This document shows positions 3,576 through 24,452 of a stretch of 35,159 nucleotides of DNA, piece by piece; the stretch's first letter is position 1; each line of letters opens with the position of its first letter. A model generated the notes under the pieces. It did no database searches and was not told the origin of the DNA. It saw only the letters and a list, made by a program, of their open reading frames with translations. Source of the stretch: Nanobdellota archaeon. Lineage in GTDB: Archaea; Nanobdellota; Nanobdellia; Woesearchaeales; JAHIVG01. A program made the translations under genes and the position numbers. The stretch spans positions 1 to 35,159 of the forward strand of contig JAHIVG010000111.1 in assembly GCA_018816705.1 (NCBI GenBank), written 5' to 3'.

Positions 3576-3658
3576 GCGGCAGTAGTCTAATGGTAGGACA
3601 CTACCCTGCCAAAGATTGTAGATCGGTGGTAATCGGGGTTCGAATCCCCGCTGCCGCA
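3576..3658 (+). tRNA. tRNA-Gly(GCC), one intron
   Basis: Acceptor GCGGCAG/CTGCCGC, D stem GTCT/GGAC, anticodon stem CTACC/GGTGG, T arm CGGGG TTCGAAT CCCCG. Confidence 0.93.
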
Positions 3659-4374
3659 TTTCTTAGGACCTTCGCCTTCCTCGGATTAGAAAATCCAATC
3701 ATTTGATAAAAATCCTCCAGTTCCTTTTTTCGCACTGTGATTTCATAACAATCTCGACAATTCGGTCTTGAATCATGGATTTTGACCAATTTGTGGTCAA
3801 TAAATAATTTAAAAAGAATATTCGAAATTTGTTCCATAAGCACTTTTGATATTGTCTTTACTCTCACTCTATATGTGTCAGCGTGTCCGTCCGTGTCGAA
3901 AACACCTCTGACAAAATGAGTAATAAACTCATAAGAATACGTACCAACATCATGTTTCAAGCAGACATTCTCGATTTTCCGATTTATCACGAGGAATGAA
4001 TCAATCAAATCAAATATTTTCCTTGAATAGAACATTAACATGAGTTGTGTTTGACTTTTGTAATATATCTTAACTTCCTTATTGAAATTATCTTCAATAA
4101 GTCTTTTAAGGTATAAAGCATAATCATAATCCTGTTTAGCATGTAAATGTATAGTTATGGTATGATGCCCAGTCTTTCTATCGTGGAAATATGATCCATC
4201 ACCCGCAAAAACACCTAAAAATTCCCCGATAACTTTAGGATTTGTCGGGATTCTTACTTCATCATATTTCTTATTAAAAAACCTCTGATTATTATGCGAA
4301 TGTGATATTTTATCGACCAGTTCCATTTCATAATGTAATTGTCGATTAATCATTTCATTATTAATCATTTTCAT
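3601..4374 (-). CDS. LAGLIDADG-family homing endonuclease-like protein
   Basis: Two LAGLIDADG-like motifs (VIGEFLGVFAGDGSY, FVRGVFDTDGHA); C-terminal ~19 residues encoded antisense to tRNA-Gly. Confidence 0.8.
   Translation of the reverse strand: MKMINNEMINRQLHYEMELVDKISHSHNNQRFFNKKYDEVRIPTNPKVIGEFLGVFAGDGSYFHDRKTGHHTITIHLHAKQDYDYALYLKRLIEDNFNKEVKIYYKSQTQLMLMFYSRKIFDLIDSFLVINRKIENVCLKHDVGTYSYEFITHFVRGVFDTDGHADTYRVRVKTISKVLMEQISNILFKLFIDHKLVKIHDSRPNCRDCYEITVRKKELEDFYQMIGFSNPRKAKVLRNAAAGIRTPITTDLQSLAG
3612..3623 (+). other. tRNA-Gly intron (12 nt, 37/38)
   Basis: CTACC|CTGC|CAAAGATT|GTAG|ATC|GGTGG: minimal bulge-helix-loop; splicing gives loop CTGCCAC. Confidence 0.85.
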
Positions 4375-22478: not shown

Positions 22479-22553
22479 ACCTGTGAGAAGGGAATTTGTA
22501 CTAATGTAAGTGGCAGGTAGTGAACAGATATAGAAAAAATGCGGGGAAAGGGA

Positions 22554-22592
22554 CTCTCTCACTGGCGTTCGGAGCATTATCGCCCGCCAATA
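22554..22592 (-). other. tRNA-Leu(CAG) T-loop intron (39 nt)
   Basis: GAGGG|TTCG|AAT|ATTGGCG...CGCCAGT(G)|AGAG|AGT|CCCTT; splicing gives TTCGAAT. Confidence 0.82.
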
Positions 22593-22624
22593 TTCGAACC
22601 CTCGTAAGCACTAAGCTACACGGC

Positions 22625-22640
22625 TTCTCCTGCTATGCAA
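22625..22640 (-). other. tRNA-Leu(CAG) anticodon-loop intron (16 nt, 37/38)
   Basis: CACGG|TTCA|GGT|TGC-ATA-GCA|GGAG|AAG|CCGTG; one A.G mismatch in central helix. Confidence 0.8.
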
Positions 22641-22656
22641 CCTGAACCGTGCCCGT

Positions 22657-22704
22657 TTGGTCGAAAAACCCGAGTTTTTCGAGCTCGAAAATCTCTGATT
22701 TTCG
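22657..22704 (-). other. tRNA-Leu(CAG) D-loop intron (48 nt)
   Basis: GGTC|AAC|GAAAA...TTTTTC|GACC|AAA; splicing gives GGTCAAACGG, identical to the uninterrupted D-loop of tRNA-Leu(UAG). Confidence 0.92.
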
Positions 22705-22726
22705 TTGACCGCTCCGGCATCCCCGC

Positions 22727-22775
22727 ATGCAAAGCGAGCGGGGGCCCAGCAATCTCTGATTGCTCGTGTCCCCGC
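22727..22775 (-). other. tRNA-Leu(CAG) leader hairpin with upstream copy of the acceptor strand
   Basis: GCGGGGACACGAGCAATC-AGA-GATTGCTGGGCCCCCGCTCGCTTTGCAT directly before GCGGGGATGCC. Confidence 0.7.
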
Positions 22776-22807
22776 AAGTATGCTTGCTTCATGAGAAAAT
22801 CAATTAG

Positions 22808-22815
22808 TATAAATA
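22808..22815 (-). promoter_or_regulatory. TATA-like box for tRNA-Leu(CAG)
   Basis: tataaata (plus), 33 nt from the upstream acceptor copy. Confidence 0.4.
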
Positions 22816-22829
22816 TTTAATGAAAGTGT

Positions 22830-23138
22830 CTATTCTAAAGGCTCCTCAACGAGCCCGCCGATGTCATCTGCATTCGCTGTAGCCATTTCAGGGGCATAAT
22901 ATTCATTCTGTGTATACACCTTTCCAGGGTCATTGTACATTATCATGCCGCCTTTGTTCAATCTTCGTTCTATGCACCCGCCCGGCCCTAGCATGCACGC
23001 CGCTAACGAGGTTACAGCAGCAAGACCTAATGTAATCTTGAGAGTCATGAAAAGACCCTTCCCGAAGCGGCTTGGTTCAGGTTTCGCTTCCTGTTTTTCT
23101 GGCTCATAATTTCCTGATGGTAGGTTTGCATATAACAT
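22830..23138 (-). CDS. small putative lipoprotein
   Basis: Hydrophobic segment ending in a lipobox-like LAAC; 102 aa. Confidence 0.55.
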   Translation of the reverse strand: MLYANLPSGNYEPEKQEAKPEPSRFGKGLFMTLKITLGLAAVTSLAACMLGPGGCIERRLNKGGMIMYNDPGKVYTQNEYYAPEMATANADDIGGLVEEPLE

Positions 23139-23172
23139 TTTAGGATGGATAGATTAGATGGATATTTATGTT

Positions 23173-23556
23173 TTACCCTGTTTTCTCAATCCCTTTAAGA
23201 ACCTTCATCGCCCCCTCGGCCTTCTCAACCGGCACGAAGAGGTGGTCATGATGGAACGCAGAGACTGTATTGACGCTGATGCCCGCCTCTGCCAGCTTCT
23301 CGGTGATCTTGGCCAGGAAGCCCACAGCCTCGAGGTCGGAGTGCACTGTCAACGTTATCCACGACCAGGCCCCATCATATTCTATCATCTTCTTGTCCGC
23401 AATCTCTTTCCTCAGGATGAGCGTCGTGCCCTCCTCTTCCTCGAACACCAGCACAGGCATTAGCGAAGGGTCGAAATCGGCCTTGCAGAAAACGTATTCA
23501 CCCTTGTTGAGCTTCGGGCTCATCGAGTTCAGCAGTGTCTTGAGGTCTTTTATCAT
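23173..23556 (-). CDS. ACT-domain protein
   Basis: WSWITLTVHSDLEAVGFLAKITEKLAEAGISVNTVSAFHHDHLFVP. Confidence 0.85.
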   Translation of the reverse strand: MIKDLKTLLNSMSPKLNKGEYVFCKADFDPSLMPVLVFEEEEGTTLILRKEIADKKMIEYDGAWSWITLTVHSDLEAVGFLAKITEKLAEAGISVNTVSAFHHDHLFVPVEKAEGAMKVLKGIEKTG

Positions 23557-23592
23557 TTCACTTCCTCCGTTACCACATAATTTTAGCGTGGC

Positions 23593-24174
23593 TCATTTTT
23601 CCACCAGCTTGATGATTGTCTCTTCACCGAAAACCACTAGACCCTTTATTGCATTTAAGGCTACCTTGTCCTCATTTTTGATGTTGCTCTTGAAATCTTC
23701 TCTTGTCTGGTATATAGGATGCAATTTCTTTACGTTTATTAGATTAATTTCTTCGATTTCCCTCTTTAATTGTGCAAATCGTTTTCGGTCTGTGATGAGA
23801 AGGACGTCGATATCCTTGGCCTCGTGTTTCTTCAGGACTGAACCGAACAAGATGGCAGAATCAGCGCTCTTGATTTTCCTGATGTCAGTGACCCATCTCT
23901 TCACGTGAGCTGTGACATGTTCGACCTCCCTCTTCAATAGGAATCTGATATACTGCTGCACATAATCATCCTCGATGTTCAAGGTATAATAAATTGCCCT
24001 GCCCATTAGTTTTGATTTGAGGATGTTCCCCTTCTCAAGTCTCCTTGCGATTTTCAGGGCACCCATCGCACTGATTCCGATATCCTTCGCGATACTGCTG
24101 GCATTATAATCTCTTTCAGGATTCTTGAAGATCCTCAGGACGAAATCCATTTCGTTGGCAGTGATATCCTTCAT
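23593..24174 (-). CDS. winged-helix plus nucleotidyltransferase-fold protein
   Basis: N-terminal HTH (SSIAKDIGISAMGALKIARRLEKGNIL); AILFGSVLKKHEAKDIDVLLIT NTase motif. Confidence 0.85.
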   Translation of the reverse strand: MKDITANEMDFVLRIFKNPERDYNASSIAKDIGISAMGALKIARRLEKGNILKSKLMGRAIYYTLNIEDDYVQQYIRFLLKREVEHVTAHVKRWVTDIRKIKSADSAILFGSVLKKHEAKDIDVLLITDRKRFAQLKREIEEINLINVKKLHPIYQTREDFKSNIKNEDKVALNAIKGLVVFGEETIIKLVEK

Positions 24175-24265
24175 TTAAACTCACAGTTTATATATATAAA
24201 CTCAAAGTTTAAATAGTTTTCGGTTTCAAAGTTGGCATGATTAGAAAAAAATGCGGAGAGCAGGG

Positions 24266-24285
24266 CTCTCGACACCGAAAGGCGC
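24266..24285 (-). other. tRNA-Leu(UAG) T-loop intron (20 nt)
   Basis: GCAGG|TTCG|AAG|CGCC-TTTC-GGTG(T)|CGAG|AGC|CCTGC; splicing gives TTCGAAC. Confidence 0.87.
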
Positions 24286-24317
24286 TTCGAACCTGCGTAG
24301 GGACTAACCCATCAGGT

Positions 24318-24335
24318 TTCACATGACAATGCCAC
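24318..24335 (-). other. tRNA-Leu(UAG) anticodon-loop intron (18 nt, 37/38)
   Basis: TCAGG|CTTA|GGG|TGGC-ATT-GTCA|TGTG|AAA|CCTGA; one U.U mismatch in central helix. Confidence 0.8.
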
Positions 24336-24373
24336 CCTAAGCCTGACCCGTTTGACCGCTCCGGCATCTCCGC

Positions 24374-24421
24374 AAGTAAAGCATGGACATCCAAGCAATC
24401 TCCGATTGCTCGTGTCTCCGC
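24374..24421 (-). other. tRNA-Leu(UAG) leader hairpin with upstream copy of the acceptor strand
   Basis: GCGGAGACACGAGCAATC-GGA-GATTGCTTGGATGTCCATGCTTTACTT directly before GCGGAGATGCC. Confidence 0.7.
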
Positions 24422-24444
24422 ATTAGGATTGGGTTGATAAGTGC

Positions 24445-24452
24445 TATAAAAA
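24445..24452 (-). promoter_or_regulatory. TATA-like box for tRNA-Leu(UAG)
   Basis: tataaaaa (plus), 24 nt from the upstream acceptor copy, not from the tRNA body. Confidence 0.5.

Follow-up and report, generated by a model that had tools for sequence, protein, structure and literature searches.

Three predicted introns in a tRNA-Leu(CAG) gene of a Woesearchaeales archaeon, and the single EndA gene found in its genome

Our analysis of a 35,159-nt contig from an uncultured Nanobdellota archaeon of the DPANN order Woesearchaeales (JAHIVG010000111.1; here, the window) identified a tRNA-Leu(CAG) gene whose D-loop, anticodon loop, and T-loop are each interrupted. Very probably this is a functional gene, with three BHB or relaxed-BHB introns that EndA removes from one precursor and RtcB joining the exons. 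Triple-intron tRNAs are already known, and this gene adds another case; its main interest is the enzyme.

Anatomy of the tRNA-Leu(CAG) gene

An earlier note on this DNA, which gave no strand for the gene, described introns of 48, 16, and 39 nt, together 103 of its 187 nt; the coordinates, sequence, and lengths all hold, and the gene lies on the minus strand. It is laid out below with the neighboring tRNA-Leu(UAG).

22540..22726 (-): pre-tRNA-Leu(CAG), three introns, 187 nt (exact self-match)
22705..22726 (-): exon 1; acceptor 5' strand, D-stem 5' strand, D-loop up to GGTCAA
22657..22704 (-): D-loop intron, 48 nt, at about position 21/22; core GGTC/GACC; bulges 5' AA^C and 3' AA^A; long imperfect hairpin inside
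22641..22656 (-): exon 2; D-stem 3' strand through G37, with anticodon CAG
22625..22640 (-): anticodon-loop intron, 16 nt, at 37/38; core UUCA/GGAG (U.G, U-A, C-G, A.G); bulges GG^U and AA^G; inner stem UGC/GCA
22593..22624 (-): exon 3; N38 to A59, including the variable arm and UUCGAA
22554..22592 (-): T-loop intron, 39 nt, at 59/60; core UUCG/AGAG (U.G, U-A, C-G, G.A); bulges AA^U/AG^U; inner stem AUUGGCG/CGCCAGU
22540..22553 (-): exon 4; T-stem 3' strand, acceptor 3' strand, discriminator A
24252..24373 (-): tRNA-Leu(UAG), 122 nt, uninterrupted D-loop; internal control

With the introns taken out, the tRNA is complete. Joined, the exons make an 84-nt molecule in which every arm pairs and which ARAGORN calls as Leu(CAG); it is identical at 75 of 84 bases (89%), with zero gaps, to an uninterrupted tRNA-Leu(CAG) from another family of the same order (L005). 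Its D-loop equals the uninterrupted D-loop of tRNA-Leu(UAG), GGTCAAACGG, just as the earlier note had claimed. This neighbor, 1.5 kb away, is itself interrupted by an 18-nt intron at 37/38 and a 20-nt intron at 59/60, in the T-loop. As it stands, tRNA-Leu(CAG) went undetected by Rfam and ARAGORN run on the window, and there were zero Rfam matches from 22500 to 24450. Group I introns were considered and rejected: inserts of 16-48 nt are too short for a self-splicing catalytic core, and none has an Rfam match.

All three introns have 3-nt bulges, with the predicted cut after the second base. The central GGTC/GACC helix of the D-loop intron had been called perfect, and 4 of its 4 positions do pair. 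The 5' splice site had been set directly after GGTC; homologous introns fix this boundary instead after GGTCAA, because the two bases preceding the 3' site vary (AG, AT, TA, and so on) while the exon AA is constant. The spliced product proposed earlier is unaffected by this shift.

In the anticodon and T-loop cores, three positions pair and the fourth is a mismatch of two purines. Between the D-loop helix and the D-stem lies a 4 x 3 internal loop, with a 4-nt GAGC opposite the 3' bulge. A strict BHB, with helices flanking both bulges and four standard core pairs, was found at none of these introns, which we class as relaxed because of the fourth-pair mismatches and the discontinuity between the D-loop helix and the D-stem. 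At minimum free energy, the pre-tRNA is predicted to form the D-loop BHB, including its two 3-nt bulges (z = -4.84; 0 of 200 shuffles did as well), and in the T-arm RNAfold prefers a register two bases off the predicted T-loop register.

Taken together, these features suggest that the gene would be transcribed as a single precursor, with a BHB or relaxed-BHB element arising wherever an intron pairs with its own exon. EndA would then cut every 3-nt bulge behind its second base, and the exons would be ligated by RtcB into the 84-nt Leu tRNA; the order in which the introns leave is likewise something we infer.

Intron pairing across Woesearchaeales

We surveyed 359 genomes of the order using a D-loop pattern that fixed exon bases only and left the intron side free. 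Matches were found in 66 of the 359, and chance matches from uninterrupted genes were removed by hand. A separate scan with GRCY fixed in the pattern presupposes pairing and was excluded from the covariation analysis. For tRNA-Leu, the survey yielded 69 different introns in the D-loop, ranging in length from 17 to 48 nt.

The earlier note had named BHB pairing in related genomes as the check on its reading, and this pairing is conserved, with central helices showing compensatory change across the order in the D-loop, T-loop, and anticodon cores. In 56 of the 69 D-loop introns, all four bases of the exon GGYC pair with the predicted intron tetramer, compared with 22 of 1335 control tetramers from the same introns. 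The third core pair covaries (T-A 31 and C-G 28 versus C.A 5 and T.G 2; Fisher p = 4.6e-11); the intron sequences are related, so these counts overstate the number of independent events, yet many families are spanned. Of 61 D-loop introns, 46 have an inner helix of 3 bp or more that starts where predicted, versus 13 of 183 shifted controls.

Of 12 T-loop introns, 6 have A-U and 4 have G-C at pair 57, the exceptions being G.A in the gene described here and A.C in L124. The register at 59/60 is common to 11 other introns; the G.A at the fourth pair is shared by none of the relatives, and the core here is weaker than theirs. In the anticodon core, whether G-C, C-G, or U-A stands at position 34 depends on the anticodon. 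Pair 4 is A.G in 19 of 45 introns, this one included, and A.G is the most frequent state among Leu(UAG) introns. Separately, the anticodon introns of many Leu(UAG) and Leu(CAA) genes share something like GTGATGAGC...GCGATGA (L101, L119, L120, L121, L123, L153, and L154), which could form a kink-turn-like internal loop.

Overall, the sequence comparisons support the interpretation of the gene as one with three introns. A decaying pseudogene, in which insertions have broken the tRNA and CUG codons are read by wobble with Leu(UAG), is very improbable. In its favor, a tRNA-Leu(UAG) gene that could read CUG lies 1.5 kb off, relatives have a stronger T-loop core, and the genome has hairpins akin to the D-loop intron at other places. 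However, such a relic would not keep three boundaries exactly where intact relatives have them, all arms of the spliced tRNA pair, and the exons match an intact gene of another family at 89% identity without gaps. A T-run immediately downstream of the gene also speaks against decay, as does the finding that, apart from the UAG gene, no other gene with this Leu D-arm was found.

It is likewise very improbable that only some of the segments are introns and that one is a structured expansion retained in the mature tRNA. The D-loop insert folds by itself into a stable hairpin, as such an expansion might, but its core helix and boundary are common to 68 other inserts of very different length and sequence, and its core covaries; the T-loop insert, for its part, sits at 59/60 in the register of 11 others.

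The D-loop intron of tRNA-Leu(CAG) also aligns with that of a tRNA-Leu(CAA) gene in another genome (G016; region 1501-1641 of L103), with a score of 30 versus a best of 3 among 500 shuffles; judged by this alignment, the two introns are clearly homologous. Three Leu(UAG) genes (L055, L067, and L077) carry long introns resembling it. From these similarities, introns seem to have spread between isoacceptors.

EndA and RtcB genes

The genome, which is 1.74 Mb and 94% complete, contains one EndA gene (PF01974, 6.5e-32) and RtcB (3.2e-168). The EndA reading frame, at about 178 aa, is consistent with an alpha subunit, and in alignment it has the Y, H, and K of the EndA triad. Among solved structures, the closest is chain A of the Nanoarchaeum equitans enzyme (3IEY, 1.2e-34), followed by the enzymes of M. 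kandleri and M. jannaschii; 3IEY chain B matches the same gene at 6e-16. Aligned with the A. pernix alpha subunit, it has a 9-residue gap at the A. pernix insertion, which we take to be the Crenarchaea-specific loop (CSL). No second, beta-type EndA gene, three-unit protein, or CSL/ASL loop was found in this 94% complete genome, although a beta gene may have diverged strongly or lie in the remaining 6%. Among 40 relatives, EndA is present as one copy in 36, as none in 1, and as two matches in 3, and two of these last three include a contig-end fragment.

The N. equitans EndA is an (alpha-beta)2 enzyme of broad specificity (PMC6379350; PDB 3IEY). The EndA here is closest to its alpha-like chain, but a beta-like second gene was not found. 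Crenarchaeota likewise have (alpha-beta)2 enzymes, whereas here there is apparently a single alpha-type subunit without the CSL. According to one review, relaxed BHB introns are efficiently removed only by (alpha-beta)2 and epsilon2 enzymes (PMC6379350). This raises two possibilities: either an alpha-only EndA has a wider specificity than expected, or the search missed a partner that has diverged. We consider it evenly balanced whether the single alpha-type EndA of Woesearchaeales, probably an alpha4 tetramer lacking CSL/ASL and accepting relaxed motifs, removes relaxed-BHB introns at many tRNA sites. If it does, the accepted tie of relaxed introns to (alpha-beta)2 or epsilon2 enzymes would be broken. 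With one alpha-type EndA in nearly all the genomes checked, the order offers a direct test of the two-subunit or loop requirement for relaxed introns.

tRNA intron load and repeats near tRNA genes

Introns in the D-, anticodon, and T-loops occur together in 6 of 84 distinct tRNA-Leu genes parsed (the present gene, L012, L050, L067, L073, and L124), a proportion that is not a rate, the sample having been drawn largely by D-loop introns. Other tRNA-Leu genes combine an anticodon-stem intron and an anticodon-loop intron with one in the D- or T-loop. The earlier statement that triple-intron tRNAs are rare is right in general and does not apply within this order.

None of the four tRNA genes seen in the window appears to be free of introns: Leu(CAG) has three and Leu(UAG) has two, and two further genes were read by eye.

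1005-1110: Lys-like tRNA, two introns
3576-3658 (+): Gly-like tRNA, one intron

An ORF with a LAGLIDADG domain (PF14528, 2.6e-15; 3601-4374, minus strand) overlaps at its 3' end the antisense, intron-containing tRNA at 3576-3658 (+), and from this arrangement could possibly be a homing endonuclease aimed at a tRNA.

Genome-wide, only 9 tRNAs score above the Rfam cut-off, and intact T-arms (GGTTCRAAYCC) number 6, versus 2 for the reversed control pattern. One relative (G008) also has 9 tRNAs above the cut-off, and 23 others have 10 to 42. Standard tools miss genes of this kind, so that the tRNA counts of these genomes are too low.

Up to three introns per tRNA are established in Thermoproteales (PMC4033280, PMC4390854). 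The Pyrobaculum islandicum tRNA-Pro(UGG) has introns at 25/26, 37/38, and 56/57, and the P. calidifontis tRNA-Glu(UUC) is also triple (PMC4090602, PMC4390854). Like these, the present gene has three short BHB-type introns, one of them at 37/38 and two elsewhere as in the P. islandicum gene; unlike them, it encodes a different tRNA, with the other sites at about 21/22 and 59/60. Among insertion points already listed are 37/38 and 59/60, as well as 20/21 and 22/23, which flank the D-loop site (PMC4090602).

In the Asgard lineages Atabeyarchaeia and Freyarchaeia, 92-95% of tRNAs have introns, more than half of them several (PMC11291895); these archaea share with ours an intron-rich tRNA set with non-canonical sites, found from genomes, although the lineage is unrelated. 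A tRNA-Ile of the red alga C. merolae has the same three arms interrupted (PMC9602550). The likeness to Leu(CAG) lies in these arms; this is an unrelated gene of a eukaryote with a Sen-type endonuclease. A heavy tRNA intron load with recurring triple introns thus extends to Woesearchaeales, besides Thermoproteales, some Asgard archaea, and a red alga. We found no report of such a load in Woesearchaeota or DPANN in the literature searched, in which coverage of subscription papers was thin.

Both Leu genes in the window are preceded by a short module (22727-22775 and 24374-24425, both minus strand), as are several tRNAs elsewhere. The module opens by repeating the 7 to 14 initial bases of its tRNA; a hairpin follows, then in most cases the complement of the repeated bases, and last a spacer. 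Modules were also seen at L021, L025, L067, L077, L120, L132, and L133, an example being GCGGGGACACGAGCAATCAGAGATTGCTGGGCCCCCGC ahead of the GCGGGGA tRNA. Two stand in tandem at L077 and L132, and a tRNA-Ser (L023) has a mirror-image module downstream. Exact 7-base copies lie upstream of 8 of 59 Leu genes, one of which (L056) looks like chance; judged by the 7-mers of other genes, 0.42 would be expected. When one mismatch is permitted and the complement must be present, there is a weak excess (8 versus 5). A transposon with target-site duplication was set aside as the source because, in most modules, the complement of the copied end of the tRNA is present too.

The hairpin core of the D-loop intron, AAATCAGAGATTT (22689-22701, minus strand), has 4 copies in the genome, versus 0 for the control, in hairpin-rich stretches; it recurs at L085, L086, and L087. 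The shorter AATCAGAGATT also occurs within the upstream module (22751-22761, minus strand). On the strength of these repeats, the D-loop intron may derive from such a repeat.
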